This document shows positions 25,949-47,095 of a DNA stretch of 64,000 nucleotides, in pieces. The DNA is taken from positions 248,001 through 312,000 of the forward strand of contig NZ_JAGQCE010000002.1 of assembly GCF_024345995.1 (NCBI RefSeq). Direction: 5' to 3'. Origin of the DNA: Synechococcus sp. Cruz-7E5. Lineage in GTDB: Bacteria; Cyanobacteriota; Cyanobacteriia; PCC-6307; Cyanobiaceae. Each line of letters starts with the position of its first letter. Within the stretch, counting starts at the first letter, position 1. Below the pieces are notes generated by a model that saw only the letters and a program-made list of their open reading frames with translations, did no database searches and had not been told where the DNA came from. Made by a program: the position numbers and the translations under genes.

Positions 25949-26430
25949 CGGGAGTCCTCCCCGGCACCGGCCGGCTGCACCTCTGACGCAGCGCTGATCA
26001 GCTCCGCTCGTGGGTAGCGGATCTGCAGCTGGGGCCAGTGCACGTAGAGCACATCGAGGAAGGGCAGAGCCAGCCGGGCCGAGAGGCTGAGCGTCTCGAT
26101 GCGGGTGATCGATTCAACGAACACCGTGCGGCAGCCCAGGAGCTTGCCGAGGATCAGGAAGGGAACGCCCACCCCGGCACCTGTGGAGAGGACCACGTCG
26201 GGCCTGGGTCGCTGCAGCACCTGCCAGGAGAGCAGGGCGTTGCGGATGAGGTTGGGAATGTTGCGGTTGGTGGGGCTGTGGGCCCAGATCACGGGTTCCC
26301 CCTCCAGGGCTGCCCGGGTGGTAGCCGTGTCAAAGGTCACCCAGCTGCGCTGGTGCTGGCTCCAGAACGGTTGCAGCTGGAGAAGACCCTTGAAGTGACC
26401 ACCGGAGGAGCACACGAGCAGCAGACGCAT
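25945..26430 (-). CDS. Alg14/PssD-like glycosyltransferase anchor half
   Basis: 161 residues from ATG 26430. MRLLLVCSSGGHFKGLLQLQ, RPDVVLSTGAGVGVPFLIL and CRTVFVESITRIETLSLS match the GT28 N-terminal family of Alg14/PssD, which binds the lipid acceptor and recruits the Alg13-like catalytic half. Its stop overlaps the Alg13-like start, a common coupling for obligate partners. It starts four bases after the tandem GT2 gene. Confidence 0.85.
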   Translation of the reverse strand: MRLLLVCSSGGHFKGLLQLQPFWSQHQRSWVTFDTATTRAALEGEPVIWAHSPTNRNIPNLIRNALLSWQVLQRPRPDVVLSTGAGVGVPFLILGKLLGCRTVFVESITRIETLSLSARLALPFLDVLYVHWPQLQIRYPRAELISAASEVQPAGAGEDSR

Positions 26431-26434
26431 CAGC

Positions 26435-28534: not shown

Positions 28535-28583
28535 CGTGCGCTCCCGGTTCTGCTCAGGGGCTCGGCATGGACGCAGGTAAAGC

Positions 28584-29609: not shown

Positions 29610-30025
29610 GATCAGGTCGGTGCATTGAGGGTGGGCCGCGGCATCAGAGTCGCCATAAAGCATCCCAGTTGATGAACGGTGCAAGGCCGTTCAGCTCTGG
29701 GAAGGATGAGGTTTGCGCTGCGCAGCTTGGCCAGCCTGGACCATCTCCACAGCAACGCGACAACCGGACAGGTTGGAACGTTCGCAAGGTCAGCCTGCTC
29801 GCTCTGGGTGTGCGTACGCGGATCTGCGCTCCACTCCAGGTTCACGGCAACAAAACCCAGGTACGGGAACAGAGACGATATCAGGTGCAGATCGCGATTC
29901 CCACTCCTAAATGGTCTCACGAAACCGCGAGGTGGTGTGCTCCGCAAACCGCGGACGCAATACGAAACATTAAAGGATTCGGCATCAGAAATTCTCCGCC
30001 AGGGAGCCAGGGACAACGCAAATGG
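29610..30025 (-). other. Unassigned 416-base gap inside the glycosyltransferase operon
   Basis: A minus-strand frame of about 134 codons crosses the gap (29612-30016) but resembles no family and has ordinary non-coding composition. I see no terminator, tRNA or repeat. The gap may hold an internal promoter for the GT genes or the remains of a lost gene. Confidence 0.4.
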
Positions 30026-31300: not shown

Positions 31301-31340
31301 TGAATTTACGGAAGAATCTAAATCATGAATAGTTGGAGAA

Positions 31341-32147
31341 TTAGCTTAAGAACTTGGCATAAGGAGTGTGAGTTAATTCTTGGTGTAACTCATCATAGTT
31401 CTCAACCAAATCTTGCAAATTATCGGAGGAGAGCTTGCGCTGACGACTAGTGATGGGAATCGCTTCAACGCCTAAGAACTCAAAAGCTTGTTGCCGGAAA
31501 TGTGCTTGAGACTCTGGAGAGGAAAACAGTTCCTCATAGGAAATGCTCAATAGGTGGTCAGTATCTACGTGACTTAGAATCTCTTGTTGCTGCATGACCT
31601 CCTTTTCGGCGTTGGTCAGCATTTCAAGAATTTCTGGAAGATCGACTCGAATTCTTGATTGCCGCGTTTGTGTAACTAACTTTCCATCCTGAGTCATTTC
31701 CGAGGATACAATTCGGGTTTTTCGCATCAGCTCCAGAGATATGTGCTGCTTGAGGTGATTCTCGCGATAAAGGTAAATGATGTGAAGGTCGGGGTGATCC
31801 CGGAAAAAATCCAGCAAATGATACTTCAGCATGGTGTGGTGGAAGTCCTTGACGCCAACGGAGCGGATCTGAGAGTATCGTTTGAATTGAATTGGCTTAT
31901 GTCGTAGGAGGTTCTGGTAGGCGTAGTATAACTGAGAAAAGTAAAAGAATAAACGACTTGAGTATATGAAGTTAAGATAGGCTTTGCTTGGTCTTCTTCT
32001 GGTGAGTGCCCGAAATATCTTGTGGGGCTTTGTCCAGTCTCCGAGCACCTCTCCATAGTTTACCAAGTGGGGGTGTTGGTTGAATAAGTCTACCAAGAAG
32101 TTGCTGCCACTTCTGGCTTCGGTGTAGATAAAGTGCTGTTTCATCAT
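31341..32147 (-). CDS. Sulfotransferase (Stf0/NodH-like)
   Basis: 268 residues. The N-terminal FIYTEARSGSNFLVDLFNQH is the 5'-phosphosulfate loop for PAPS; IIYLYRENHLKQHISLELMR is the 3'-phosphate loop. The family transfers sulfate to sugar hydroxyls. Its position 40 bases upstream of the flippase implies the exported polymer is sulfated, as for synechan of Synechocystis. It is AT-rich like the flippase. The start is ATG 32147 (MKQHF preceded by one Met). Confidence 0.85.
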   Translation of the reverse strand: MMKQHFIYTEARSGSNFLVDLFNQHPHLVNYGEVLGDWTKPHKIFRALTRRRPSKAYLNFIYSSRLFFYFSQLYYAYQNLLRHKPIQFKRYSQIRSVGVKDFHHTMLKYHLLDFFRDHPDLHIIYLYRENHLKQHISLELMRKTRIVSSEMTQDGKLVTQTRQSRIRVDLPEILEMLTNAEKEVMQQQEILSHVDTDHLLSISYEELFSSPESQAHFRQQAFEFLGVEAIPITSRQRKLSSDNLQDLVENYDELHQELTHTPYAKFLS

Positions 32148-32833
32148 GTATGGCAATGGAGAAAGAGAGGCTCAGATCAAAGCCGGAAGATCAAGCGGGG
32201 TGTGGTCCTTGAGCCTTTGAGGCTGGGTTCAATCTGAGCATAGCGGCACTAGGTAATCCTGCTAACTCTAATTGCATCCGATGTCCTCAAGATGGGCAAA
32301 TTTGTCTGGGACATGTCGAAGCATGCTGATTTTCTTGCTGTTGAGCCCGGTCAACTGGCGATGTCGACCCTTATGTTAGCCGGTGGCATCACGGTGATGG
32401 CAGATGATATCAACGTACTTGGGGATTTTCTCACTCTCTAGGACCTGTGCGTCTGTGGCTTGAGACTTGTCGCCAAGTGAGTATCGGGAATATTGTCATC
32501 CACCTTGAGGAGTCGGTTTAGGCTCCGGACGATGTGACGATCCATGGTGGGCAGTCAGCTTGGCGAAGCCGAGCCACATGCCCAAATTGGGTGAGGCCAC
32601 TCATGGCTGTTCAATTCGTCCCAAAGCAGCTTCGTCCCAAAGCAGCGTGAATTGAGCGTGCTCAATGAGTGGATCAATATCGGCTGAAGCGGTGGCGCCC
32701 AAGACATAGATCCTAGATCCCTAGGCATCAGAGCCGAATTGCTAAGCCGTGCCTGCACGGCCATCTCACTTCGAAGGGGAACTGATTCAATCGTGTGGCT
32801 AGCATGGTGAACCATTGCAGGCTGCGCTAGGGT
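32148..32833. promoter_or_regulatory. 686-base divergent intergenic region of the polysaccharide locus
   Basis: It separates the leftward arm (sulfotransferase first) from the rightward arm (export protein first), so it should hold both main promoters. No frame in it is convincingly coding; short frames near 32290-32460 and 32555-32815 have no recognisable homology and may be remnants. It contains the 16-bp tandem duplication at 32615. Confidence 0.5.
32615..32646. repeat. Perfect 16-bp tandem duplication
   Basis: TTCGTCCCAAAGCAGC occurs twice, head to tail with no mismatch, in the divergent region. Perfect identity suggests a recent duplication or a paired protein-binding site. Confidence 0.6.
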
Positions 32834-33970
32834 ATGAAACTACGAGGCATCGTGCAGATTCCTCAATCGAGACGTGTGCCGAAGACCCCGCAAACTGGCA
32901 TTCATGCCTGGCAGATCGCTCGCATGTCGAGAGGTCTGATCAACAGCTTGCTGCTGCTCTTGATTCTGTTCCTTCCAGCGGCTGGTGTGAAGGCTCTCCC
33001 CCTTTCGCCTGGCGATCGGGTGAAGGTCACAATTCCGGAGGGTGAAGAATTCAGCGGGATATTTGAGGTAAATCTGAATGGGGAGCTAGAGCTACCCTAC
33101 ATTCGCGGGATTCCGGTTACTGGACTCGAGCCCTATCAGCTACAAGATCGTATCTATCAGGCACTGGTAAAGGGTGGTTATTTTCAGCCCTCCTATCTCA
33201 AAGTCAGTGTCAACGTGATCCAGTGGGCTCCAGTGGAGGTATTTGTCAGCGGGTCAACCTTCGCGCCTGGTCGAGTGTTGATCAATGAATGGACCCCCGC
33301 AGAACAGACCCTTGCGCCTGTGGCCCAAGGCGGTCAGGGCGCCTTCAATCGCTTTCTCTCAGCCGCGATCCGTTCTGCAGGCGGCTTGCTACCTACAGCT
33401 GATGTGACGGCGGTTGAGATGATCCGAAACCAGGAGCGACTAGTGGTTGATCTTAGTGGGGCCTTTACCGGTGAGCCCTTCAAGGATATTCCTCTTGTTG
33501 CTGGCGATCGGGTCATCGTGCCCGATACCGGCCAGGTCAATCCTCTGATCATTCGACCTTCCCAGATCACACCTGTGGGGGTGAAAATCTACATTTCCAA
33601 TCTCACCGTACCGGCTACCAGCAATGCCACCTCTGCAATTGGCAGGGATGCCACCTCCTTCCCCTATGGATCCCGCTTCTCCCATGCTGTAGTTTCGGGC
33701 AACTGCGCTGGTGGCACAGTGATCACCAATGCCTATCGCCGTGCCGTGTTGGTGAGGGTGGATGCCACCACCGGCAAGACCACCACCCTCGACAAGGGCG
33801 TGGAGCAACTGCTGCGACGCTCCAGCAGCAGCGAGAACAATCCCTATCTCATGCCGAATGATGCGGTAGCTTGTTATGATTCTGCTGTGACCAACGTCAG
33901 AGACGTTCTCAGAATATTCTCGGAGATCATAGGCCCAGGGGTTCTCCTCTACGACCGCTTCACACCCTGA
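32834..33970 (+). CDS. Wza-like outer-membrane polysaccharide export protein
   Basis: 378 residues. A hydrophobic signal (LINSLLLLLILFLPAAGVKA) precedes the Poly_export domain: LPLSPGDRVKVTIPEGEEFS and NLNGELELPYIRGIPVTGLE, then an SLBB-like segment with VSGSTFAPGRVLI and IPLVAGDRVIVPDTG. It would form the export channel. ATG 32834 gives a 30-residue cytoplasmic extension before the signal; ATG 32924 is a plausible alternative. Confidence 0.88.
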   Translation: MKLRGIVQIPQSRRVPKTPQTGIHAWQIARMSRGLINSLLLLLILFLPAAGVKALPLSPGDRVKVTIPEGEEFSGIFEVNLNGELELPYIRGIPVTGLEPYQLQDRIYQALVKGGYFQPSYLKVSVNVIQWAPVEVFVSGSTFAPGRVLINEWTPAEQTLAPVAQGGQGAFNRFLSAAIRSAGGLLPTADVTAVEMIRNQERLVVDLSGAFTGEPFKDIPLVAGDRVIVPDTGQVNPLIIRPSQITPVGVKIYISNLTVPATSNATSAIGRDATSFPYGSRFSHAVVSGNCAGGTVITNAYRRAVLVRVDATTGKTTTLDKGVEQLLRRSSSSENNPYLMPNDAVACYDSAVTNVRDVLRIFSEIIGPGVLLYDRFTP

Positions 33971-33977
33971 GGGCCCA

Positions 33978-35495
33978 GTGAAGTTCCAGCCCACATTGCG
34001 TGATCGTGCCCGCACATTGATTTCGCCATTGTCTGTGCCGATTGCCAAAGGCGCACGCCTGTTGACTGACCAATTTCAGAATATCCCTCTGCCGAGACTT
34101 GCCCATCCAAAGGCATGGTGGAGTTCCCTGAGTAGAACGGACAAACTCCGCTGGAGCCGCTATTTCATGGTGAGTGGAGCGACGAATGGATTGATCTGGG
34201 GTTCGAGCCTTCTCTTTCTGGCGACGGCTAAACCAGTTTATACAAGCTCCTGGGCGCTGATCCTACCTGGCAACATCAATGCAGTGAGTTTGAACCTTCC
34301 TGAGATTGGTCAGGCATCCGCCTCCAGCGGATCATCCGGTGGTGCCAGTTCCAGTTTTGATCCACGTGCCAACTATGAATATATCTTTACCAGTGAGCAG
34401 GTGATTCGTCAGGCGGCTAAAAATGCCCAACTTCCGTTTAAAAAATTTGATGAGCCTCGAATAAAAAACATTGATAACACTACAATCATGCAAATTGAGG
34501 TCACTGGTCCAGCGCCAGAAGAGGCCCGCCGTAAGTCCTATGCCCTCTACGATGCCCTACGGCAGCGGCTCAACGAGCTCCGTGCTAGTGAGATCCAACA
34601 GAGGGAAGTTCCCACCCAGACCATTCTTCGTGATACTCAGGCCAAGCTGGCTGCCGCTCAGAGAAAGGTTTCGGCCTACAAGCTCAAATCCGGAATCAAT
34701 TCGATCGAGCAAGTGGAGGCTCTCTCCACGAACATCGAGCAACTCCGTCGAGATCGTGCTCAGTTCGCCTCCCAACAGGCCCAGGCCGATGGGAAGGTGC
34801 AGAAGCTAAGCAGCAGCCTTGGTATCACAGCTGCTGAGGCGGCCGATGCCTTCAAGCTACAGGTGGATCAGATCTTCCAGCAGAATCTTAAAGACTACAG
34901 CGAGGCCACTGCAATCCTCAAGGTTGAAAGCTCAAAGTTCGGTCCCAACAACCCTCGCATCCGTAAGGAGGTGAAGCGTCAGCAGGCAGCCCAGCAAGCC
35001 CTGCAGAGTCGTGCCAGTCAGCTGCTCGGCCGTCCACCTCTGGCCAGCATCCTCACTCGCCTTGCCCTCGGCTCCAGTGGCTCTGGTCGCGACGCTCTTT
35101 TCCAGTCCCTGGTGACGGATCAGTCCACGGCTTCCGGCGCTGCCGCTAAGGTGCGCAAGCTGGATCAGCAGATCGCCTCCCTTGAGGATCGGCTGCGCTG
35201 GATGTCCCAGCGGCAGTCAACTCTGGAGAGCCTCCAGCGGGACGAGCAGATCGCCCAGGCTGTGTTCGCTTCCACCCTCGCGAAGCTGGATCTTGGCCAG
35301 GGAGATCTGTTCGCTGCCTTTCCGCTTGTGCAGATTGCTGTGGAGCCGAGTCTGGCTGAGAGGGCCACCTTCCCCAAGAGGGGCCTCGTGCTGGCCGGTT
35401 CTGCTATCGGATCGATCCTCACCACAGCAGGACTGTGGATTCTCTGGATCCGCAAGCCCTGGATTAAGCGGATCGCCAACATGATCTCCACCTAG
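33978..35495 (+). CDS. Wzz/GumC-like chain-length and export co-polymerase
   Basis: 505 residues. It has one helix near residue 70 (ATNGLIWGSSLLFLATAKPV), a long periplasmic coiled-coil region (residues 200-420, with GPNNPRIRKEVKRQQ) and a second helix near the C-terminus (LVLAGSAIGSILTTAGLWIL). This is the PCP layout without a tyrosine-kinase domain, so phosphorylation control of the Wzc kind is missing. GTG 33978 follows the export protein's stop by seven bases. Confidence 0.87.
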   Translation: MKFQPTLRDRARTLISPLSVPIAKGARLLTDQFQNIPLPRLAHPKAWWSSLSRTDKLRWSRYFMVSGATNGLIWGSSLLFLATAKPVYTSSWALILPGNINAVSLNLPEIGQASASSGSSGGASSSFDPRANYEYIFTSEQVIRQAAKNAQLPFKKFDEPRIKNIDNTTIMQIEVTGPAPEEARRKSYALYDALRQRLNELRASEIQQREVPTQTILRDTQAKLAAAQRKVSAYKLKSGINSIEQVEALSTNIEQLRRDRAQFASQQAQADGKVQKLSSSLGITAAEAADAFKLQVDQIFQQNLKDYSEATAILKVESSKFGPNNPRIRKEVKRQQAAQQALQSRASQLLGRPPLASILTRLALGSSGSGRDALFQSLVTDQSTASGAAAKVRKLDQQIASLEDRLRWMSQRQSTLESLQRDEQIAQAVFASTLAKLDLGQGDLFAAFPLVQIAVEPSLAERATFPKRGLVLAGSAIGSILTTAGLWILWIRKPWIKRIANMIST

Positions 35496-35510
35496 GCGGC
35501 GCAGTCGGCG

Positions 35511-36854
35511 ATGGGGATCAAGTTCTGGAAAATGCGGCGAGAACCTTCCGATCTCCAGCCTGAAAACTGGCCGGAGCGTTTGGTGTGGTGGTCGATTATA
35601 AGTACCTATTTTGTCTGGCTGTTCGGTGGGCTCTATGTGGTGGGCTCTGTTCTGGGCTGGTTGCTGCTGGGATGCCTGATCGTGATGATCCTGGCGAGAA
35701 CTGACCATCCGGATGAGTTTGATCCAATCGTGATTTCACCTGTCATCTGGCTTTGGATTGTGGGCATGCTTCTGATGGAGGTTGCCCTGATTGCAGGCCA
35801 TGTGGATTTTAATCTCGGCACAGGGATGATCATTAAGTCGTCGATTGGCTGGGCCAAGGGTTGGGCGGGTCTGGCCCTCTATCCCTTGGCAGGTTGCCTG
35901 AAGATTCGTAGCGGCATCATAAGCAGGGCTGTCTGCATTGTGGGACTCCACACCCTCATCGTTGTTCCAGTTCTTCTTGTTACGCCATATCTTCATCTGC
36001 CTGAGATTCTTTATGTTTCGCCTTTGCGAGCTATCGGCGGCCCGGGTGATTCTTTCTTTGATGTTCCACTTTATGAGATTGATCACACGACTGGAGATCT
36101 GCGCTGGCGTCTGTTCACTCCTTGGGGGCCTGCCCTCGGCTTTGTGGGCAACGTGAACTTCATGCTTTGCCTGCAGGAAAGGGATCGGAACTGGAAGCTT
36201 ATTGGCTTAGCGGGCTCCATCGTGATGTGCTTTGTTTGCAAGTCGCGACTGGCTCAAGTCTGTATTGTCCTCATCCCTCTGGTTGTCACCGTGATTGCCA
36301 GGATTCGCCGCCCACTTACACTGATTTGCCTTGGGTTTGTCTCCTATCTGGGTGGCATCTTTGCGCCAATGCTGCTGACGGCGGCCAGCAACTTCTGGGA
36401 AGATTTCAAGGGCGCACGTGCCGACTCAACTCGGGTGCGCTTTGCTCTCAAGCGCATCGCTTTTCGCCGTTGGGAGGAGGAGGCACCCATCTGGGGGCAT
36501 GGCATCGTGGAATCCGGCCCACACCTGGTTGAGTTTATGCCGATCGGGTCTCACCACACCTGGGCTGGGCTGCTGTTTGTGAAGGGGCTTGTTGGCATGT
36601 TGGCCCTGATCGTGCCAATGGCAGCCACGATCATCACCCTGATCCTACGAGCTTCCAATCCCCGCTATAAGTTGGGTTCGGTGGGCCTCAGCATGATCGT
36701 GATTCTTCTTCTCTATACCTTTGGTGAAAACCTCGAAATTCTGGTCTATCTCTATTGGCCAGGAATGATCATGATGGGGTTGGCCTTACAGGAGCCCAAG
36801 GCCCCATTGCCGCTTGGCTCTGGGGGAGCCCAGCTCCATCTGCCCTCCACTTGA
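35511..36854 (+). CDS. Wzy-like polysaccharide polymerase / O-antigen-ligase-type membrane protein
   Basis: 447 residues with ten or more helices and a large periplasmic loop holding the RFALKRIAFRRWEEEAPIWG and HGIVESGPH region; the WGHG...H motif is typical of the O-antigen ligase/polymerase superfamily. It would join flipped repeat units at the periplasmic face. It starts 15 bases after the Wzz-like gene. Confidence 0.8.
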   Translation: MGIKFWKMRREPSDLQPENWPERLVWWSIISTYFVWLFGGLYVVGSVLGWLLLGCLIVMILARTDHPDEFDPIVISPVIWLWIVGMLLMEVALIAGHVDFNLGTGMIIKSSIGWAKGWAGLALYPLAGCLKIRSGIISRAVCIVGLHTLIVVPVLLVTPYLHLPEILYVSPLRAIGGPGDSFFDVPLYEIDHTTGDLRWRLFTPWGPALGFVGNVNFMLCLQERDRNWKLIGLAGSIVMCFVCKSRLAQVCIVLIPLVVTVIARIRRPLTLICLGFVSYLGGIFAPMLLTAASNFWEDFKGARADSTRVRFALKRIAFRRWEEEAPIWGHGIVESGPHLVEFMPIGSHHTWAGLLFVKGLVGMLALIVPMAATIITLILRASNPRYKLGSVGLSMIVILLLYTFGENLEILVYLYWPGMIMMGLALQEPKAPLPLGSGGAQLHLPST

Positions 36855-36989: not shown

Positions 36990-37595
36990 ATGTACGGGCT
37001 TGTCAACCGTGCCATCCAGCAGATGGTCACCTCGCATCATGGAGACGATGTCTGGAGACGGATCAAGGAGAAGGCAGATCTGGAAGACCTGGATTTTTTC
37101 TCCACTTTCCAGGCCTATCCCGACGATGTGACGCATCGACTGGTTGCCGCTGCCTCAGAAGAGCTTGGCTTATCCGGCGACCAGATCATGCAGGCCTTTG
37201 GGGAGTACTGGATTACCTATACCGCTTCGGAAGGCTATGAACAGCTACTGGAGAGCACCGGTGAGACATTGCCGGAATTCCTTGATCATCTGGACAATCT
37301 CCATGCCAGGGCAGGGCTTTCCTTTCCGCAGTTGCAACCGCCATCGTTCCGCTGTGAGCATGCTGCCGACCAGTCGATGGATCTGGAGTATCGCTCCAAG
37401 CGCTATGGGCTTGCCCCCATGGTGATAGGGCTTCTGCATGGTCTGGGCAAGAGATTCCGCACTTCCGTCACGGTGGTTCAGACAGCGTCCCGGGATCGGG
37501 GAGACGCCAGAGATCTCTTCCATGTACGATATTCTGATCTCCCGCTATCTTCTGAAACCAATTCAGAGGCTGATTCCGACGGTGGTATCTCATGA
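36990..37595 (+). CDS. H-NOX haem nitric-oxide sensor
   Basis: 201 residues, whole-length H-NOX. N-terminus [33 protein letters not shown]; proximal haem ligand His105 in [17 protein letters not shown] (proline/phenylalanine haem-packing motif); and YRSKR at 134-138, the YxSxR haem-propionate motif. Closely resembling Nostoc-type proteins, it should bind NO, and perhaps CO, in ferrous haem. It sits 15 bases before the HNOBA kinase, the usual H-NOX/HNOBA partnership. ATG 36990 starts the domain; the frame reads slightly upstream. Confidence 0.95.
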
Positions 37596-37610
37596 CCCTG
37601 CATCGAGGTG

Positions 37611-40205
37611 ATGGCCTCATCACTTGAGCTATCGGTTGAGCATTTCAACCGGCTATTCCCCTTTTATCTCATACTCGATGCTGAGCTTCGTATTCTTGCG
37701 GCAGGATCTGTTTTGGAGCGGATTCTGCAGAGAGAGTCCCTGCTTGGTGATCCGCTGCAACAACACTTTCGGCTGAAGCGTCCTGAAGGCCCCTTAAGCT
37801 TCGCCGGCCTGCGCCGATCCACCGATCAGCTGGTGATGCTGGAATCGCACTCGATCGCGCTTCAACTCAAGTGTCAGATCTGCTGTCTGGTTGAACATGA
37901 GCGGCTGCTCGTCGTGGGGACCCCCTGGGTGCTGAAGCTGGATGATCTCAGCTCCTTAGGTCTGAAGATCAACGACTTTCCTTTTCAGGATTCTCTCGTT
38001 GACTATCTCTTTCTGTTACAGGCTCGGAATGTTGCTCTTGAAGAGAGCCAGAAGCTGAATGAAGTTCTAATTTCACAGCGTCGCGAGTTGCGGCAAAGCA
38101 CCCAGCGCCTGTCCGCGCTTAATGAGGAGCTGGAAGCTGCCAAGCGGGCGGCTGAGGATGCCAACTCCGCCAAGGATACCTTCCTGGCCACGATGAGCCA
38201 TGAGATCAGAACTCCGATGAACGCCATCATGGGGATGGCCGGTCTCCTCCAGGAATCTCAGCTTGGGCCTGTAGAGAGCGACTATGTAGAGATCATCAAC
38301 AGCAGCACGGACTCACTCCTGACTATTATCAATGACATCCTCGACTTTTCGAAGATTGAGTCGGGGGCGATGCATCTCGACGAGCAGCACTTTGATCTTC
38401 GCATCTGCATAGAAGAGGCACTTGATCTGATCGGGTCCCGGATGGTCGGCAAGGATCTGGATTTGATCCTGGATCTCGAACCCGGATTCCCCAGCGCGGT
38501 CATCGGTGATCTCACCCGTCTGCGTCAGATTCTCTGGAACCTGCTCAGCAATGCTGTCAAGTTCACCTCCGCTGGTGAGATCGTCGTTGTGGGTTCCGCC
38601 GAGGTTCTAGACGCTGAACCTGGCCTCCCCACCCGGTGCCGATTCACGATTCAGATCCGTGACAGCGGTATCGGGATCCCATCTGAGCTGATCTCCCAGC
38701 TTTTCGAACCCTTTCGCCAGGCCGACCCGTCGATGGCTCGACGCTTTGGCGGGACGGGGCTCGGTCTGGCCATCACCCGACGGTTGTGCGAACTGATGGG
38801 GGGCACGATCGAGGTGGCCAGCGCCGAAGGAGAAGGCAGCGCGTTCACCTTCAACCTGTTGCTGCGACTGGACCCTGCCGCACCTGCAGTCCCTGTCGGG
38901 GTTGATGGCACCGTCTCGTTCCCCTTCTCGGCTGCGTCGATCTTGCTCCTGATCCCCAATGCCAGTCTGCGTCAGGTCTTGGCCCGGCAGCTGGGTCAAC
39001 TGGGCTTTGACGTGACTGCCCCTGATGCTTCTCAGGATGGCTGGTGGGCCCAACTTCCAAGTCTTGATCGGTTGAGCCGTGTGGTGGTTGTCATTGATGC
39101 TCGGTTACTTGCTGCTGCCCATGCTTCGAATCACCCGCACCTCTGGCAGCTGCCGCTCCTGAGCCGGTATCCCTGGATCGTCCTGGCCTACAGACATGAG
39201 GAGCTGGAGCCGGGGCTTTTCCCCGACAGAATCCCTGTGGTGATCGGCAAGCCCGTGAGGTTCGATCAGCTCTGCTCTGCCCTCGTACGTCAGCTTCAAG
39301 GCCCGTCAGATCCGGTGAAGGCGAGCGTCCCTTCCTCTGCGCTGAAGCCTCCTCTTCCCCCCTGGTCCGCCTCTGTAGACAGTGTTAGCCGTCTGGCCGA
39401 CCGCCTTCCACTGCGAATCCTTGTGGTTGATGACATTCCAGTGAACCGCAAGCTGGCGCTCAAGTTGCTGGATCGCCTCGGCTACCGGGCCGACGCTGTT
39501 CCTTCAGGTGCTGAGGCGGTGCGGGCCGTTCAGGAGCACCCCTTCGACGTGCTCTTCATGGACGTTCAGATGCCCGGACTCGACGGCTACGAGGCAACGA
39601 GGGCCATCCGCAGGTTGCCCCTGCCGGTGGTGCAACCCTGGATCATCGCCATGACCGCCCATGTCAGCCCTGAGGACCGGAAGAGTTGTCAGAGTGCCGG
39701 CATGGATGATTTTCTCGGCAAACCGATCGTTCCATCTGACTTGGTCCATGCCCTGGAGCACTATCAACCCCGCCAGAATCAGACGATCCTTGATGGTGAG
39801 CCGATGAGTGGGAGTCCTCAGTCAAGCCAGGCCATTTTCGGGGACGGTGCCGATCCGATCGATGAGGCCGCCTGGCAGGAGCTCCAGCAGGTTCTAGGAG
39901 CGGATGGGGATGAAGTGCTCAGAGAGCTGATCGATCTGTACATGCAGGATGCCATGCGACTGGTTTCCTTGATCGTGATGGCCCATCAGCTCCAGGATTC
40001 GCAGGGGATGATCACGGCAGCCCATGCCCTGCGGTCTCCCAGTGCCAGCCTCGGTGCGCAGCTGTTGGCCTCACACTGTGGAGAGGTTGAGGAATCTCTG
40101 CGATCCGATCCTTTCCACTGGCCCCAGGAGACGGTCGATCGCTTGCTCGTTGAGGCCGGCAGGGTGAGCGAAGCCCTGCGTAGTCGACGCCCCTTGGAGT
40201 CCTGA
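37611..40205 (+). CDS. HNOBA-domain hybrid histidine kinase with receiver and HPt
   Basis: 864 residues. In order (numbers from GTG 37608, one residue longer): HNOBA domain 1-135 ([65 protein letters not shown]); signalling coiled coil 140-190; HisKA with His198 ([14 protein letters not shown]); HATPase 300-420 ([18 protein letters not shown]); a pseudo-receiver without acidic pocket 440-565; receiver with Asp652 ([14 protein letters not shown]); HPt with His806 ([13 protein letters not shown]). It is the probable target of the H-NOX protein encoded upstream, and its HPt can pass phosphate to the next gene's receiver. Confidence 0.93.
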
Positions 40206-40241
40206 TTCCTGATTCATTTGCGTATCGCTCCGCTATCTGCC

Positions 40242-41414
40242 ATGGACCTGTGTTCCACCCTGATCACGATCCTGCTCGTGGATGACGATCGCATCCATCC
40301 CCGCATCCTTGAGGCCCGTCTCAAGGGACAGGGCTACCAGGTCCTGATTGCCCATTCAGGTGAAAGTGCTCTGGAGCAGGCGCGTCAGAGCCCTCCCAAC
40401 CTGATTCTCTGCGATTGGCTGATGGATGGCATGGATGGTCTGGAAGTCTGCCGGGCAATCAAGGAGGATCCTGCTCTTGAGGCGACCCATTTCATTCTGC
40501 TGACGTCACGATCCCGGGTGGAGGATCGCGTGATTGGGCTGGATTGCGGAGCAGATGATTTTCTCAGCAAGCCGGTCGATCCCGACGAGCTACTGGCACG
40601 TGTCCGCTCCGGCATTCGACTGAACCAGGCCAATGAACGCCTGAAGCTTCTGGCCGAAGAGCTTCGCAGGCAGAAGGAGCGAATGGATCAGGAGTTGGCG
40701 GAGGCGGCCTGTTATGTGCGGACCCTTCTGCCGGTGGAAGTCAGAGGCACGGTGGTGGTCGATTCGCGTTTCGTTCCTTCCCATGAGCTGGGTGGAGATT
40801 CGTTCGACTACTTCTGGTTGGACGATGATCACTTCGTGATTTATCTTGCCGACGCTTCCGGCCATGGCCTTGCGGCGGCATTCCCTTCGATCTCACTTCA
40901 TAACCAGCTACGTTCCCGCTCGCTGAGCGTTGATCTTCATGATCCGGCAGAGGTTCTTAAAGCCCTGAATTCTGGATTTCAGATGGAGCGTCAGCAGGGG
41001 CGCTATCTGACCATGTGGTACGGAGTGTATCAATCCTCTTCCCGGACACTTCGGTTCGCCAGTGCGGGCCATCCCCCTGCTCTGATCTGGTCGGAAGATG
41101 GATGCACTCCTACCAGCTGGCTGAAGGGACAGGGCATGGCCGTTGGCCTGTTCGAAGACTCGATCTACATCACGGAGAGCCATGCTGTGGATCATGGAGC
41201 CTGCCTGTTGGTCTACAGCGATGGGCTTTATGAAGTGGCAAGGCAGGATGCACCGATGTGGTCACTGCCTGAATTCGTGGATGTGGTTGAGGACTGCCGA
41301 GAACTTCTCCGTGCCGAAGATGGTCTGGATCGTCTGTTGGCACGCATAAAAACTATCAATGCTAATGCTCGTTTCACTGACGACTACTCGGTGATCCGAG
41401 CAATTTTCCCATGA
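40242..41414 (+). CDS. Response regulator with PP2C/SpoIIE (RsbU-type) phosphatase output
   Basis: 390 residues. Receiver 6-120: ILLVDDDRIHP, phosphoacceptor Asp58 in LILCDWLMDGMDG, FLSKPVDPDEL. Coiled coil 125-155. PP2C-SpoIIE domain 160-390: ELGGDSFDYFWLDD, IYLADASGHGLAAAFPSISL, FASAGHPPALIWS, LLVYSDGLYEVARQD and FTDDYSVIRAIF, with metal-binding Asp residues intact. It would dephosphorylate STAS proteins when its receiver is phosphorylated. ATG 40242 is preferred to TTG 40218. It lies 36 bases after the HNOBA kinase. Confidence 0.93.
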   Translation: MDLCSTLITILLVDDDRIHPRILEARLKGQGYQVLIAHSGESALEQARQSPPNLILCDWLMDGMDGLEVCRAIKEDPALEATHFILLTSRSRVEDRVIGLDCGADDFLSKPVDPDELLARVRSGIRLNQANERLKLLAEELRRQKERMDQELAEAACYVRTLLPVEVRGTVVVDSRFVPSHELGGDSFDYFWLDDDHFVIYLADASGHGLAAAFPSISLHNQLRSRSLSVDLHDPAEVLKALNSGFQMERQQGRYLTMWYGVYQSSSRTLRFASAGHPPALIWSEDGCTPTSWLKGQGMAVGLFEDSIYITESHAVDHGACLLVYSDGLYEVARQDAPMWSLPEFVDVVEDCRELLRAEDGLDRLLARIKTINANARFTDDYSVIRAIFP

Positions 41415-41437
41415 ATCAGCTAATGGTGCCTGTGTAT

Positions 41438-41770
41438 TTAGGCTTTGGACGATCGCTCTGAGATAATCGTAAAACATTCATGGCTGCTGGGAAAGATGGT
41501 GAAAACCCGGTCGGTACCGGTGAGTTCAAGAACTAGCCGTAACTGGCTGTTGAGGCTGCACAGGTATAGCTGCCTTCCATGTTCTCTTACTCGCTTAAGC
41601 GTCGACACCAGGGCGCCGAACCCGCTGCTGTCCATGAATTCGACATCCTGACAATCAATCAGAAAGTCCTTGGGCTTCTCGGCAAGAACGGAACAAATCT
41701 GGGCCCTCAAGTCTCCTCCGTTCTGGGCGTCAATGAAACCTCTGGGCCTAAGGATGTAGAGATCATCCAT
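41438..41770 (-). CDS. Stand-alone STAS anti-sigma-factor antagonist (RsbV/SpoIIAA-like)
   Basis: 110 residues of one STAS domain: LYILRPRGFIDAQNGGDLRA, phosphoacceptor loop VEFMDSSGFGALVSTLKR (DSSG 47-50) and LCSLNSQLRLVLELTGTDRV. It converges on the phosphatase regulator with a 23-base gap and diverges from the PAS gene. It is a natural substrate candidate for the PP2C regulator and for the RsbW-like kinase 17 kb away. Confidence 0.92.
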   Translation of the reverse strand: MDDLYILRPRGFIDAQNGGDLRAQICSVLAEKPKDFLIDCQDVEFMDSSGFGALVSTLKRVREHGRQLYLCSLNSQLRLVLELTGTDRVFTIFPSSHECFTIISERSSKA

Positions 41771-41929: not shown

Positions 41930-42286
41930 ATGACGTGTATGGTCACGATTGAAGAGCTTCGTCAGAGATCGTTGCCCTTTGTCGCCGCAGACAAGGAAGG
42001 GTTGATCGTAGAGATCAACGGGTTGTTCGAGTCTGTCTACGGTTGGACGTTGGCTGACCTGAGAGGCCAGTCGCTATCCATGATCCTTCCGGATTCCTTT
42101 AAGGACGCCCACCATCTGGGGTTCTCTCGATTTCGTATTTTTGGTGAATCCCAGATTCTCAATCATCCGCTTGAACTGATGACAATCTGCAAAGATCAGA
42201 GAGAAATCAACTCCGAGCATTTCATTGTTGCTGAACGCAGTGGTGACAGCTGGGTTTTCGCAGCAACGCTGCGCCCTCTGTCGTGA
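41930..42286 (+). CDS. Single PAS-domain protein
   Basis: 118 residues, all PAS: FVAADKEGLIVEINGLFESV, YGWTLADLRGQSLSMILPDS and HFIVAERSGDSWVFAATLRP. No output domain. The gene ends seven bases before the hybrid kinase and probably supplies an extra sensor subunit. No haem, flavin or other ligand can be assigned. The start is ATG 41930 or GTG/ATG a few codons on. Confidence 0.8.
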   Translation: MTCMVTIEELRQRSLPFVAADKEGLIVEINGLFESVYGWTLADLRGQSLSMILPDSFKDAHHLGFSRFRIFGESQILNHPLELMTICKDQREINSEHFIVAERSGDSWVFAATLRPLS

Positions 42287-42293
42287 CCTGTGG

Positions 42294-43931
42294 ATGGACG
42301 ATCTGAAGCTCGTCACCCAGCTGCGGACCACCCTAGGCAGGTTGGAGGCGGCACTCGGCGCCGTCGACGAAGCCCTTGCCTTCACTGATCTCGAAGGAAT
42401 TGTTGAATGGACGAATGCGTCCTTTGATCGATTCGTTGGACGATCTCGTTTGCAGTGTCTTGGTGTCTCTCTGCCACGGCTTCTACCTACGCGTTACCAA
42501 GCCGGCCGTCCCGAAACGTCAGACTGTCTGTTGTTCTGGGCCAGAAGCGGGCCAGGAAAGGCTACCTGGGACCTGTCCCCTCTGCCTCCGCGGCGGGTCG
42601 TCGCAGTGTCCTGGGCGATGGTCAATGTGCCAGGCAAGCCATCTCTGGTCTTTACCTTCCGCGATCAGAGCGAGATCGTTCAGTCGCAGGACGCCTTGAC
42701 CGAGGCTCGCGATCAGCTCGAGCTGAAAGTGGATCAGCGTACAGACGAGCTCAAGCAGGCACGTGACCAGGCAATGGCTGCCAACCAGTCTAAAACCAGA
42801 TTTCTGGCAAGTATGAGCCATGAGATCCGAACACCCATGAATGCGGTGATCGGGATGACTGAGCTGTTACTAGACAGCCCATTGGAGCCCAGACAGAGGG
42901 AGATGGTTAGCACGATTCAAAGCAGCGGTGAGCATCTCCTCAGCGTCATCAACGACATACTTGACATATCACAGATCGAGACTGGCCGTATTCATCTGAA
43001 TGTCAGAGCATTCAACCTTCTTGCTTTGCTCGACGACTGCAAGATTCTTTTTCAGAACCAGGCTACTGCCAGGAATCTCAAAATGGAGGTGTATGTTCCT
43101 GCGGGCGTGCCGAAATGGCTGAATGGTGATGACCTGAAGCTACGACAGATTCTCTTCAATCTGTTGGGCAATGCCTGCAAATATACAAACGAAGGGTCGA
43201 TCTGTCTCTCGGTCGAGCCTGTGGTGGGGGATGGGAACAACGTGACGTTGCACTTTCGTGTTGTCGACACAGGTATCGGCATACCCGTCGATGTTCTCCC
43301 AACAATCTTCGAGGAATTCACCAGATATTCCGATCCTTCGCAGACCACTCAGAGTGCAGGTCTAGGACTGGCGATCTGCCATCGTCTCAGTCACCTGATG
43401 GGTGGCGAGATCTCCGTGGAATCGAGAGTCGGCCAGGGCAGTTGCTTCTCGGTCCATCTCCCCTTCGGGTTAACCCAGGAGCCTGCCCAGGCAGTGCCCC
43501 TAGTGGACTCCGGCGCTGATCGTGAGGCGGCTGTCGCAGACAATATTCAGATTCTCGTTGCTGATGACAGCCGTGTGAATCAACGGGTTCTGGAGTTGAT
43601 GCTGGCCAGGTTGGGCCTCAAGGCGGAGGTGGTGGGAGATGGCCAGGCGGCCCTTGATCGGATTGAGTGCGGAGGAATCGATCTGGTCTTTATGGACGTC
43701 GAAATGCCTAAGCTCGACGGGCTGGCGGCGACACGGCTGCTGCGTTCTGATGGCTTCCTTGAAGTATATATTATCGCTTTGACAGCATATTCTTACAGCT
43801 CTCATCGTCAGGATTGTGAGGCTGCTGGGATGAACGACTTTCTTGCAAAGCCGCTTCGTCATGACGACCTCTCTGCCGCACTCAGCCGTTTTCGGGACTA
43901 CCGCCGCAGGCAGGATGATGGTCTCACATGA
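42294..43931 (+). CDS. PAS hybrid histidine kinase with C-terminal receiver
   Basis: 545 residues. PAS-like region 25-130 (AVDEALAFTDLEGIVEWTNA), coiled coil, HisKA with His176 ([20 protein letters not shown]), HATPase (NLLGNACKYT, SAGLGLAICHRLSHLMGGEI) and a receiver (ILVADDSRVNQRVLELML, LVFMDVEMPKLDGLAA). No membrane helix, so it is cytosolic. It lacks an HPt, so onward transfer would need one in trans. The start is ATG 42294. Confidence 0.9.
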   Translation: MDDLKLVTQLRTTLGRLEAALGAVDEALAFTDLEGIVEWTNASFDRFVGRSRLQCLGVSLPRLLPTRYQAGRPETSDCLLFWARSGPGKATWDLSPLPPRRVVAVSWAMVNVPGKPSLVFTFRDQSEIVQSQDALTEARDQLELKVDQRTDELKQARDQAMAANQSKTRFLASMSHEIRTPMNAVIGMTELLLDSPLEPRQREMVSTIQSSGEHLLSVINDILDISQIETGRIHLNVRAFNLLALLDDCKILFQNQATARNLKMEVYVPAGVPKWLNGDDLKLRQILFNLLGNACKYTNEGSICLSVEPVVGDGNNVTLHFRVVDTGIGIPVDVLPTIFEEFTRYSDPSQTTQSAGLGLAICHRLSHLMGGEISVESRVGQGSCFSVHLPFGLTQEPAQAVPLVDSGADREAAVADNIQILVADDSRVNQRVLELMLARLGLKAEVVGDGQAALDRIECGGIDLVFMDVEMPKLDGLAATRLLRSDGFLEVYIIALTAYSYSSHRQDCEAAGMNDFLAKPLRHDDLSAALSRFRDYRRRQDDGLT

Positions 43932-43986
43932 CCACTATCGATCTTCGTCTTGCGGAATTGTCCCCGACTGAGGCTAGCGTTTATTG

Positions 43987-45972
43987 ATGGGACAACCGAG
44001 ATGGTCGAGTTATCACAGCTACAGCATGGGCCGAGATGAACCGCCCCGGGGAGACCAGATGAGCAAGGCGGTGGGTATGTCCTTTGGCAAGCCAATTCGT
44101 GATGCGGGTGTCATTGGAATAGCCGTCTTCGCGATCTCCAGTACGGCCCTGATCTTCACCTATCGGGCAGCCCATGATCTGTTGCTGAGCACAATCAGGG
44201 ATCGCCTAAGGGATGTGGCAGTGATCACGGCGTCAGAGATAAATCCTGATCTGCATTCCACGATCGCGGCATCCAGTCAGACGGGCAGCATGGCCTACCG
44301 CCAAGCCTCGGAACCACTGCTTCGATTGCGTAAGTCAGTGCCCGATATCTTTTATGCTTATACTCTCAGGATGCGGCAAAAAGATCTTCATTTCGTTCTG
44401 GATAGCTCATACTACATCAAGAATCATGGCGACGAGACCGTCGTTGCATCCACTGGCCAGCGCTACGTTGATGCTCCGCCTGCTGCGTTTCTGGCCGCTC
44501 GAACAGGTCGTGTCGCTGTTAGTGAAACTCCCTATACCGATGAATGGGGATCATTTCTGAGCAGCTTCGCGCCCATTCGTGGCGCAGATGGCAAGACCAT
44601 TGGTCTGGTTGGAGTTGATCTATCCCTTGCCTCACTCAGCCGCCAGCTTTTCCCGCTGCGTCTGAGCCTTGGGCTGTCTCTGGCTGGGACTGGCCTTCTC
44701 TCCACTCTCGTCGCCAGTCTCGTGTGGCGCTCCCAGCGATTACGAGGCCAAGCGATCGAGCAGATTCTTCGAGCCAGTGATCTGGCCCAACGTGCGGCCG
44801 CAGATTCAGAAGCAGCCAGCCGCGCCAAGAGCACTTTTTTCACGACGATGGGCCATGAGATTCGTACGCCGCTCAATGGTGTGATTGGGCTCACCAACAT
44901 CCTGTTATCAACCAATCTAACTTCCGAGCAGATCCAGTGCCTGCGAACTGTGAAGAATGCTGGTGAGTCCCTGCTGCTCTCGCTCAACCAGCTTCTTGAC
45001 TTCGCTGCTCTTGAAAGTGGTTCAATTGTCGTGGACCACACCCCTGTTCGTATCTGGCAATTGGTTCAGGAGGTCGTAGATCTGTTCGCGTCGTTGGCTG
45101 AGTCGAAATCATTGCGGCTTTCATTTGATTTGTCTGCCGAAGTACCTGATACTGTGCTTACCGACCAATTCCACCTCCGGCAGATTCTCATCAATCTGGT
45201 TGGTAACGCGATCAAGTTCACCTCCAGTGGAGATGTGAGCGTGTCAGTTTCGCCCCAGGCTCCCTACCCGGACGGGAAGTTTCACCTAGTCTTCACGGTC
45301 CGGGATTCGGGCCCCGGTCTCAGCGCGTGCCAGATCCAGAACCTCTTCCAGCCATTCATAATGGGCGACTCCTCCAGTACCAGTGTCCATAGTGGCCTGG
45401 GCCTGGGTCTGGCCATCTCCCGCGGACTGGTTACGTCTCTGGGAGGCACTATTCATGTGGAGAGCGAGCTCGGCAAAGGCTCGACGTTCCAGGTCATGAT
45501 CCCTGTAGAGCCTTCGTCCGAGCCTGAATCCAGCTCTTTGGCGCCTGCCGTTACGCCCTCTGAAAGCACCGACGATTTTGCGGCCTTTCACCCCCTACGT
45601 ATTTTGCTGGCAGATGATAATCCCGTGAATGTACGCGTCTGCGAGCTGATGCTGAGCCGCCTTGGCTATGGCGTGAGTGTGGCCTTTGACGGAGAGGATG
45701 CCATTAACCAGCAGCGGAGCCTCGACCCTGATCTCATCTTGATGGATCTGCGCATGCCGAAACTTGATGGGCTGGAGGCTACACGCAGAATCCGTGCCAT
45801 TCGCGGTAACGAACTTCGTCCGTGGATCGTGGCGATTACCGCCAATGTACGGGAAAGCGATCGTGAGACAGCTTTGAATAGTGGTATGAACGACTTTGTC
45901 AGCAAGCCAATCCAGGCCGAACGGCTCCGTTCAGTCCTGTTGCGGGCCCACGCAGCGATCAAGATCGGATAG
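43987..45972 (+). CDS. Membrane-bound hybrid histidine kinase with extracytoplasmic sensor
   Basis: 661 residues. TM1 near 37-58 (AGVIGIAVFAISSTALIF), a periplasmic Cache-like domain of about 170 residues (DVAVITASEINPDLHSTIAA, IFYAYTLRM, FLSSFAPIRGADGKTIGLVG), TM2 near 225-248, HisKA (FFTTMGHEIRTPLNGVIGLT), HATPase (NLVGNAIKFT, SGLGLGLAISRGLV) and a receiver (LRILLADDNPVNVRVCELML, LILMDLRMPKLDGLEA). It follows the PAS kinase on the same strand. The ligand is unknown. Its end overlaps the GGDEF gene by 42 bases. Confidence 0.9.
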   Translation: MGQPRWSSYHSYSMGRDEPPRGDQMSKAVGMSFGKPIRDAGVIGIAVFAISSTALIFTYRAAHDLLLSTIRDRLRDVAVITASEINPDLHSTIAASSQTGSMAYRQASEPLLRLRKSVPDIFYAYTLRMRQKDLHFVLDSSYYIKNHGDETVVASTGQRYVDAPPAAFLAARTGRVAVSETPYTDEWGSFLSSFAPIRGADGKTIGLVGVDLSLASLSRQLFPLRLSLGLSLAGTGLLSTLVASLVWRSQRLRGQAIEQILRASDLAQRAAADSEAASRAKSTFFTTMGHEIRTPLNGVIGLTNILLSTNLTSEQIQCLRTVKNAGESLLLSLNQLLDFAALESGSIVVDHTPVRIWQLVQEVVDLFASLAESKSLRLSFDLSAEVPDTVLTDQFHLRQILINLVGNAIKFTSSGDVSVSVSPQAPYPDGKFHLVFTVRDSGPGLSACQIQNLFQPFIMGDSSSTSVHSGLGLGLAISRGLVTSLGGTIHVESELGKGSTFQVMIPVEPSSEPESSSLAPAVTPSESTDDFAAFHPLRILLADDNPVNVRVCELMLSRLGYGVSVAFDGEDAINQQRSLDPDLILMDLRMPKLDGLEATRRIRAIRGNELRPWIVAITANVRESDRETALNSGMNDFVSKPIQAERLRSVLLRAHAAIKIG

Positions 45973-46950
45973 ATCGTTCGCGACCGTCCGATTGCGTCCC
46001 GACATCCAGGCTTGCCTCAGTGCCGTATCGGCACGCTGGTACAGATCGGTGAATCCAATGTCCTGCGCATCCCGGCTTGAGACCCCGGCACTGATGCTCA
46101 GAACGTGACGTGAACCATCCACGATCACCCCCTGCTGTGCGATTTGGCAGCGGATCCGCTCCGCAACCGCCAAGGCGGCCTGGACGTCCTGTCTGTAGAG
46201 CATCACTGCAAACTCCGCACTTGCCACCCGAGCAGCAAGATCACCGTTCCCGAGTTCCGACCGGATAGCGACTGCAACGTCCTGAATCAGCCGATCCCCT
46301 TGGCCATCAGCGAAACGCTCGTTCAGGTTGGTGAAGTCATCAAGCCCGATCAGCAGAAGCGTGAGAGGCTCCTGGTGGAGGAGTGACTGTTGAAACTCCC
46401 GCTGGCCAGATTCGAAGAAGGGCCGTCGGTTGTGGAGCCCAGTTAGAGGGCAGAGATAACGGTCGCGCCGTGATTCAAGGGTGTGGATCACCATGCCGGC
46501 GAGTTCCTCGAGCAACTGGCGCTCATGCTCCTGGAGGCGCCTGGGCTCTGGACCGATCACACAGAGCGTCCCGAGAGCATGTCCTTCCCGGGTGCGCAGC
46601 GGAGCCCCTGCGTAAAAGCGAATGTGGGGATCCCCTTTGACCAGAGGATTGTCCCGGAAGCGATCATCAGCCTGGGCATCACTGACGACCATCACTTTAT
46701 CGGAACAGATGGTGTGAGCACAGAAAGCAACCTCCCGTGCCGTTTCACTCGCCTGCAGACCCACACGGGAGAGAAACCACTGGCGATTGTGATCGACGAG
46801 GGAGACCAGTGCTATCGGCATTCCCAGCATCTGGCTCGCGATCCGGGTAATGCGATCAAAGTCCTCGTCTGGCTCTGAGTCGAGAATGTGGAACGAATCC
46901 AGCTCATCTTGACGCTCAGCCTCGTCCTCTGGAACGGGATAGGAACTCAT
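45931..46950 (-). CDS. GAF protein with degenerate GGDEF domain
   Basis: 339 residues. GAF domain: ERQDELDSFHILDSEPDEDF, FCAHTICSDKVMVVSDAQAD, FYAGAPLRTREGHALGTLC. Then a GGDEF fold opening LCPLTGLHNRRPFFESGQRE, but the signature reads ASAEF where GGDEF is required, and no RxxD inhibitory site precedes it. It is unlikely to make c-di-GMP; it may act as a sensor or scaffold. ATG 46950 matches the family start; 46980 is possible. Confidence 0.85.
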   Translation of the reverse strand: MSSYPVPEDEAERQDELDSFHILDSEPDEDFDRITRIASQMLGMPIALVSLVDHNRQWFLSRVGLQASETAREVAFCAHTICSDKVMVVSDAQADDRFRDNPLVKGDPHIRFYAGAPLRTREGHALGTLCVIGPEPRRLQEHERQLLEELAGMVIHTLESRRDRYLCPLTGLHNRRPFFESGQREFQQSLLHQEPLTLLLIGLDDFTNLNERFADGQGDRLIQDVAVAIRSELGNGDLAARVASAEFAVMLYRQDVQAALAVAERIRCQIAQQGVIVDGSRHVLSISAGVSSRDAQDIGFTDLYQRADTALRQAWMSGRNRTVANDLSDLDRCVGPQQD

Positions 46951-47095
46951 CGCAGGTTCAGGGAACTGGACTGTGCCCATGGGCCGCTACTGATCAGCAT
47001 GGATGACCCTTCAGGCACGACATGCAGACGGTGTCCAATTCCTCTGATTCCAACCCTAGGCGTGAGGCGTTGCCTCCGGCTGAGAGGATGCGGCA

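Follow-up and report, generated by a model that had tools for sequence, protein, structure and literature searches.

Three sensor kinases probably share one histidine phosphotransfer domain beside an exopolysaccharide locus in Synechococcus sp. Cruz-7E5

Where might two hybrid histidine kinases that end in receiver (REC) domains, with no histidine phosphotransfer (HPt) domain of their own, pass their phosphate? The question is raised by a locus of Synechococcus sp. Cruz-7E5, which we examined within a window of 64,000 nucleotides (contig NZ_JAGQCE010000002.1, positions 248,001 to 312,000 of the forward strand; coordinates below count from the first base of the window). Here, a kinase with a PAS-like sensor (PAS kinase) and a kinase with two hydrophobic stretches (membrane kinase) lie downstream of a kinase with an HNOBA sensor (HNOBA kinase), which adjoins an H-NOX gene and bears an HPt. 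The original prediction, made from the DNA alone, held that both HPt-less kinases may feed this HPt, which would then integrate nitric oxide (NO), a cytosolic PAS signal and an extracellular signal. Genomic evidence, namely a single HPt, its clade and gene co-occurrence, supports such an integration point, with a strong case for sharing by the PAS kinase and a moderate one for sharing by the membrane kinase. We consider it likely that the locus encodes a branched His-Asp phosphorelay, in which one HPt is the hub for three kinases and leads to a PP2C phosphatase with a receiver (REC-PP2C), STAS proteins and exopolysaccharide. Put simply, three sensor kinases, one of them linked to an NO sensor, probably pass their signal via one shared relay domain to a switch over the neighbouring slime genes. 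Gene content, the uniqueness of the HPt, its clade membership, the conserved neighbourhood and the co-occurrence are direct observations.

One HPt and three hybrid kinases

The genome (3.16 Mb in 31 contigs, rated 99.99% complete) was searched with Pfam profiles. At E ≤ 0.001, Pfam Hpt matched a single place in the whole genome (32.6 bits), inside 37608-45972. Two extra places appeared at E ≤ 10 (E 0.67 and 3.2), both under the cut-off; they were rejected as a second HPt, their frames resembling antisense reading on inspection. The search for orphan HPt proteins, proposed along with the original prediction, was thereby run genome-wide, and no second dedicated HPt was found with Pfam Hpt or with a profile of this HPt (best 18 of 35 candidates). 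Response_reg matched 15 places, 14 of them above the cut-off, which divide into three in histidine-kinase frames, one in REC-PP2C and 11 in regulator-sized proteins; HisKA matched 11 places. Among the frames read, kinase and receiver are combined in three proteins only, genome-wide, and all three lie in the window. The genome has three SpoIIE-type PP2C genes, and the one with a receiver is at this locus. All hybrid kinases, the HPt and the REC-PP2C found in the genome thus sit inside 37608-45972 (8.4 kb); random placement would bring three genes within 9 kb at a frequency of ~2e-5, a figure that is indicative, as bacterial genes cluster.

As had been predicted, the nearest HPt is the C-terminus of the HNOBA kinase (26.8 bits; Pfam cut-off, 24.6). 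Its AlphaFold model is a four-helix bundle (mean pLDDT 89.6), for which the best solved fold match was HptB of Pseudomonas aeruginosa (TM-score 0.84). HptB was also the best sequence match in the PDB (E 1.2e-7 with a five-row profile, 1.5e-6 with the single sequence). The sensor side was identified from PF07700 (7.4e-53) and PF07701 (1.1e-23), which match adjacent genes and make them a pair of an HNOB protein and an HNOBA kinase. Membership in the H-NOX family suggests NO as the signal. In the HNOBA kinase, we also noted a degenerate receiver with no Pfam match (38898-39287, + strand; residues ~431-560), situated after the kinase core and before the true receiver; it is 38-42% identical in six of eight distinct relatives, and 55% and 92% identical in the other two.

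The prediction had treated 41930-43931 as one PAS kinase gene, which we reject: the stretch holds two reading frames, and they are separate open reading frames (ORFs) in relatives. The start codon of the PAS kinase is the ATG at 42294, which lies seven bases past the stop of the PAS ORF, and the PAS ORF is separate in all relatives aligned except the deletion derivative L151. In L151 (genome G124), an ORF at 7659-8126 (- strand) links the beginning of the PAS ORF with a portion of the PAS kinase receiver within an otherwise near-identical cluster, apparently by a natural deletion. The absence of an HPt from both kinases was borne out: each ends in a receiver, with no Hpt match at E ≤ 0.1. The PAS kinase (ORF 42225-43931) matched HisKA (79.9 bits), HATPase_c (98.1 bits) and Response_reg (83.5 bits), with sub-threshold PAS matches; the membrane kinase matched the same three domains (51.5, 89.8 and 90.8 bits), and its sensor is Cache-like only under Pfam cut-offs. 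The H-box, N-box, receiver DD, phospho-Asp and KP motifs are intact in both.

For the receiver of the membrane kinase, the best match in the PDB was 7c1j (E 6.8e-26); for the PAS kinase receiver, 7c1j ranked third (≤0.5 bit from the first), and for that of the HNOBA kinase, fourth. The alpha-1 segments of the PAS- and membrane-kinase receivers are alike by eye, but such similarity is common among the receivers of hybrid kinases. Judging from residue names in PMC7467158, we take 7c1j to be the receiver of PA1611. Three kinases, PA1611 among them, have been reported to feed HptB (PMC5085249). The resemblance to 7c1j is a likeness, not proof of partnership.

The standalone PAS protein, of 115 residues, is 80-82% identical to those of four relatives. 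Its sole PDB matches at E ≤ 0.1 were the haem PAS domains of FixL/DosP, and these were weak (E 0.003-0.05). A His that is invariant among the aligned PAS ORF rows lies opposite a FixL His, presumably a haem ligand. This protein might be a haem PAS sensor, which we treat as a lead only.

The relay genes among relatives

We examined the distribution of these genes in 151 genomes of the family, on which the presence counts rest (genomes are given by our G handles, sequence regions by L handles). For the kinase families and REC-PP2C, the best ≤12 candidates per genome were scored, so absences are less than complete; for the profile of this HPt, the best ≤18 were scored. Kinases in genomes outside the 13 described below were assigned by profile score, except in regions examined directly, and the rows L072/L152 and L073/L164 were taken as duplicate contigs, each pair being counted once.

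An HPt was found in 22 of the 151 genomes at E ≤ 0.01 (19 above the Pfam cut-off). The REC-PP2C of this locus occurs in 13 genomes (E ≤ 1e-40), and an HPt lies directly upstream of it in all 13, with the putative phospho-His kept in every one. In seven of these, including the window genome, the HPt is fused to the HNOBA kinase; the HNOBA-type locus is also found in Cyanobium sp. N.Huapi 1H5 (L070) and Aphanothece saxicola (L071). In five others (G035, G090, G051, G054 and G077), the HPt has its own frame, in the order hybrid kinase-HPt-REC-PP2C-STAS, and no match to an H-NOX or HNOBA sensor was found in the 20-kb region. The standalone HPts were above the Pfam cut-off in 5/5, and again in the four re-tested. 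The kinase before the HPt matches the sensor of the PAS kinase (38-57% identity) in G035, G090, G051 and G054. In G069, a further kinase-receiver-HPt protein, with no HNOBA sensor match, takes the place of the HNOBA kinase (L171, 7595-10207, + strand), followed by REC-PP2C, STAS and GAF-GGDEF genes.

In a tree of 24 family HPts (24 of 29 rows; five under the Pfam cut-off were left out), the 13 cluster HPts, fused and standalone alike, formed one clade (97/95) apart from the 11 others. The HPt on the NO-linked kinase is therefore of the same kind as the HPt beside PAS-type kinases, and we regard this shared clade as the strongest single argument that the PAS kinase may use it. Across 244 genomes of the phylum, the profile of this HPt matched 66 at E ≤ 1e-6; among the matches listed, the best outside the family reached 79 bits, versus 229 here, and most lay in long frames. 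PAS-type kinases occur in 11 of the 13 REC-PP2C genomes and in 0/138 others. A tree of kinase-receiver cores (75 of 131, comprising all 43 cluster and other family kinases and 32 of 88 others taken at random) resolved three groups: PAS kinases (100/99, 11 rows), HNOBA kinases (100/100, nine rows), and membrane kinases plus their unlinked relatives (100/100, 13 rows). A larger group (90/98) took in both the PAS and the membrane kinases, together with two G069 rows and two from other phyla.

The direction of flow is not readable from sequence, and the HPt-less kinases could be mainly phosphatases that drain the HPt, with one donor facing two sinks. This would overlap with the shared hub that we favor and reverse its net flow. 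We think it possible, yet on balance rather unlikely, as the complete motifs of both kinases fit donors as well, and in the five genomes with a standalone HPt the HPt-less neighbour kinase is the natural donor.

The membrane-kinase family was detected in 11 of the 13 REC-PP2C genomes versus 1/138 others, and the lone exception (G103) is an 88% complete genome with the membrane-kinase gene in pieces and a fragment of the STAS-sugar transferase described below. Carriers and non-carriers of the genes share genera; the genus to which the window belongs contributes three of each to this sample. One alternative is that only the PAS kinase shares the HPt and that the membrane kinase acts as an independent or orphan sensor, with its receiver in a regulatory role. 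Indeed, it is a PAS-type and not a membrane kinase that stands in the kinase-HPt-REC-PP2C order of the standalone-HPt genomes, and the membrane-kinase family is unlinked to the cluster in five genomes (G005, G132, G090, G077 and G035) and was not detected in G054 and G069. Nevertheless, the family is hardly seen outside genomes with this HPt, and the gene adjoins the cluster in 6/13. In the regions surrounding the five unlinked copies (10.6 to 20 kb), the queries used matched no further receiver or HPt, and the cluster HPt is the only HPt at E ≤ 0.01 in G005, G132, G090 and G035 (not in G077). Because the family co-occurs with the HPt even when unlinked, linkage does not explain everything, and we consider sharing by the PAS kinase alone unlikely. 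Four of the five unlinked copies lie beside a small GAF protein, and the G035 copy is at a contig start; across seven unlinked relatives (L174, L175, L176, L177, L178, L180 and L181), the GAF protein adjoins six of seven, and the copies of L180 (G103) and L181 (G113) are in pieces.

Several observations weigh against the shared hub. All 13 cluster HPts read HxLRS, with R at +3 and S at +4 from the His, where HptB has conserved Lys and Gly (PMC7467158), so the phospho-accepting activity of this HPt needs proof; and fusion may, for steric reasons, reserve the HPt for the kinase that carries it. Long branches were flagged in the HPt tree, that of the G054 HPt being the longest. The G077 kinase is split over two frames and matches in core and receiver only (receiver, 60%), with no sensor match; it was left out of the kinase tree yet counted as PAS-kinase family in the Fisher test, and omitting it leaves 10/13. 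The Fisher values, 5e-15 for the PAS kinase and 6e-14 for the membrane kinase, ignore linkage and relatedness, and most of the co-occurrence is not independent because the genes are linked. In addition to the two genomes in which no membrane kinase was detected, the PAS kinase is deleted in G124 (in its near-identical cluster), interrupted by a stop in L070 and absent at the G069 locus. Other copies are broken as well: in G005, REC-PP2C is interrupted and the STAS-sugar transferase is spread over overlapping frames; in G048, the H-NOX frame is short and the STAS-sugar transferase is split; and in G132, the H-NOX frame is split. Such copies reflect decay or draft-sequence errors, indistinguishable here. 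Finally, at least three family genomes (G064, G083 and G087) have full hybrid kinases and no detected HPt, which indicates that lacking an HPt does not force dependence on one. That the HPt serves the HNOBA kinase in cis only, with the other kinases signalling to REC-PP2C directly or not at all and standing nearby by chance or island transfer, would agree with these HPt-less genomes, with the partial linkage and with the fusion itself, which favors cis transfer, but seems quite improbable given that an HPt of the same clade stands unfused beside an HPt-less hybrid kinase in five relatives (with the PAS-kinase sensor in four) and that the membrane-kinase family co-occurs even when unlinked.

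A proposed phosphatase-STAS output and the exopolysaccharide locus

The prediction had also stated that the two kinases lack a downstream regulator. This is misleading: the REC-PP2C gene (40218-41414) and a previously unreported STAS gene (41438-41770, - strand) lie just upstream. REC-PP2C has 398 aa, with intact PP2C metal-site motifs and no Pfam match to a serine-kinase domain, and the adjoining STAS gene carries a DSSG motif. Three RsbW-like kinase genes in the genome are above the Pfam cut-off, one of which (23929-24438) adjoins a priming sugar transferase with an N-terminal STAS-like domain (STAS_2 26.1 bits, under the cut-off of 29.2; IDSSG motif). Both genes belong to the exopolysaccharide locus, which extends up to the H-NOX gene.

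The STAS-sugar transferase was found at E ≤ 4e-101 in 13 of the 151 genomes, the identical set to that of REC-PP2C. The next match was at 1.8e-43, and among the matches listed most weaker ones covered the transferase part only, with a few longer (G076 and G044). In G005, the search matched the transferase part only, the STAS part being in an overlapping frame. The RsbW-like gene adjoins the STAS-sugar transferase in 13/13, with 28% identity in G054, where the STAS-sugar transferase is >500 kb from the cluster. Exopolysaccharide is the likely output; this rests on guilt by association, which counts against the proposed relay as a whole. A sulfotransferase-like gene suggests that the polymer may be sulfated. 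Since all4160 of Anabaena has already been described as a glycosyltransferase with an N-terminal STAS domain (PMC8256260), the STAS-glycosyltransferase fusion is not new as such.

In our best explanation, we infer the phosphotransfer steps, the ligands, the direction of control and the exopolysaccharide output as follows. Three kinases would each autophosphorylate and pass phosphate to their own receiver: the HNOBA kinase under the control of H-NOX, the PAS kinase, perhaps aided by its detached PAS partner, and the membrane kinase. All of these receivers would exchange phosphate with the C-terminal HPt of the HNOBA kinase, and this HPt would hand it on to the receiver of REC-PP2C. The phosphatase of REC-PP2C would then oppose the RsbW-like kinase on STAS proteins (the solo STAS protein, the STAS-like domain of the sugar transferase, or both), and the phosphorylation state of these proteins would control exopolysaccharide synthesis.

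A diguanylate cyclase was also considered as a local output. The GAF-GGDEF gene, which shares 42 bases at its 3' end with the membrane kinase gene, has the motif ASAEF in the window, and GG[DE]EF occurs in 0/11 distinct relatives aligned (L158 has AGDEF). An active cyclase is therefore unlikely in this genome, and we set this candidate aside on its degenerate motif.

Table 1. Genes and domains of the relay locus and the exopolysaccharide locus in the window, with the basis of each assignment
Feature	Position	Strand	Basis
RsbW-like serine kinase (HATPase_c_2)	23929..24438	-	PF13581 47.7 bits
STAS-like domain fused to priming sugar transferase (Bac_transf), probable output target	24441..25427	-	PF02397 215.7 bits; start by inspection
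Exopolysaccharide locus, including Alg13/Alg14-like proteins and glycosyltransferases	25424..36854	mixed	Pfam
Flippase of the exopolysaccharide locus	30026-31300	-	Pfam
Sulfotransferase-like gene of the exopolysaccharide locus	31341-32156	-	25.5 bits, just under Pfam cut-off 27
Wza-like exporter of the exopolysaccharide locus	32834-33970	+	Pfam
Two proteins of the exopolysaccharide locus with no Pfam match	33978-36854	+	Pfam search
H-NOX haem NO-binding sensor protein	36990..37595	+	PF07700 E 7.4e-53
HNOBA hybrid histidine kinase (HNOBA-HisKA-HATPase-degenerate receiver-REC-HPt)	37608..40205	+	Pfam; degenerate receiver read from sequence
HPt domain, putative phospho-His codon 40023-40025	39924..40148	+	PF01627; AlphaFold model
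REC-PP2C (SpoIIE-type) response regulator	40218..41414	+	PF00072, PF07228
STAS-domain-only protein (anti-sigma-antagonist type), DSSG motif	41438..41770	-	PF01740 3.1e-22; TIGR00377 above cut-off
Standalone PAS protein	41939..42286	+	PAS under Pfam cut-off; TIGR00229 above cut-off
PAS hybrid kinase (PAS-like-HisKA-HATPase-REC), without HPt	42294..43931	+	Pfam; start set by comparison with relatives
Membrane hybrid kinase (two hydrophobic stretches flanking a Cache-like region, HisKA-HATPase-REC), without HPt	43984..45972	+	Pfam; hydropathy
GAF-GGDEF protein, degenerate motif ASAEF, convergent with the membrane kinase	45931..46980	-	Pfam; motif

Comparable systems and meaning of the locus

In P. 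aeruginosa, the hybrid kinases PA1611, ErcS' and SagS feed HptB and then a regulator acting on an anti-anti-sigma protein of the STAS type (PMC5085249, PMC7467158). The likeness of the present locus to this HptB-HsbR-HsbA system lies in several HPt-less hybrid kinases facing one HPt (here two, plus one HPt-bearing kinase) and in an HPt whose nearest PDB entry, in sequence as in fold, is HptB. Unlike HptB, which is a protein of its own, the HPt here is fused to the NO-linked kinase (standalone in five relatives). HsbR, which we take to combine receiver, PP2C and serine-kinase domains, would carry its own serine kinase, unlike REC-PP2C, for which the separate RsbW-like gene is a candidate. HsbD is active, whereas the GGDEF protein here has a degenerate motif.

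The Syp system of Vibrio fischeri (RscS, HahK/HnoX, BinK, SypF, SypE and SypA) offers a second precedent. RscS is thought to use the HPt of SypF despite having its own (PMC5019070), the NO-controlled HahK acts through SypF and partly LuxU, and the SypF Hpt domain alone restored biofilm in a sypF mutant (both PMC12369376). On a signal from the relay, SypE removes phosphate from SypA, a STAS protein, and thereby favors polysaccharide (PMC4517449). Thus, the SypF HPt serves other kinases, including one controlled by H-NOX, and the output, a receiver phosphatase acting on a STAS protein, controls a polysaccharide locus; here, the H-NOX and HPt genes adjoin an exopolysaccharide locus. Given this precedent, the idea of a shared HPt is an established kind of wiring. 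The arrangement differs in that the NO-linked kinase of Syp does not hold the hub HPt, which here is on the NO-linked kinase, and in that SypE is both kinase and phosphatase, whereas REC-PP2C has no matched kinase domain. Syp also has the transcription regulator SypG, for which no counterpart search was made here.

Two cyanobacterial systems are related in part. HmpU-HmpV-HmpW of Nostoc punctiforme is likewise a phosphatase/kinase/STAS partner switch in a motility and polysaccharide locus, but the available text of PMC8256260 describes no hybrid-kinase phosphorelay hub for it or for all4160. XssS/XssR/XssQ of Synechocystis is a two-component control of a sulfated exopolysaccharide (synechan) locus; its output XssQ is a STAND transcription activator rather than PP2C and STAS (PMC8205485). 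By analogy, the present locus would work like HptB-HsbR-HsbA and Syp, without every defining feature of either. What differs here is that the hub HPt is on the NO-linked kinase, that the serine kinase is separate and that the candidate target is an enzyme of polysaccharide synthesis. In the open-licence literature (titles and abstract openings), we found no account of such an HPt hub, HNOBA kinase or PP2C/STAS switch from cyanobacteria. A more far-reaching reading is that the NO kinase captured, by fusion, an HPt that was ancestrally a separate partner of the PAS kinase and so became a hub for two gas-type inputs, H-NOX and the detached haem PAS protein, and for one periplasmic sensor. The output of this hub would act post-translationally, via PP2C and an RsbW-like kinase, on the STAS domain of the priming sugar transferase and so gate the first enzyme of polysaccharide synthesis directly, with no transcription factor. 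We regard this full scenario as speculative and doubtful.

Shared-relay wiring of this type is already known from biofilm control in Vibrio and Pseudomonas. In Synechococcus sp. Cruz-7E5, the two-component set is very small and all hybrid kinases found may converge on one HPt, so that the hub could be dissected nearly without cross-talk. Relatives hold both states, with the HPt separate or fused to the NO kinase, which makes the effect of fusion on hub sharing testable. If the output is the STAS-bearing priming enzyme, a direct enzymatic switch would connect NO and other signals with slime, aggregation and bloom behaviour in cyanobacteria.

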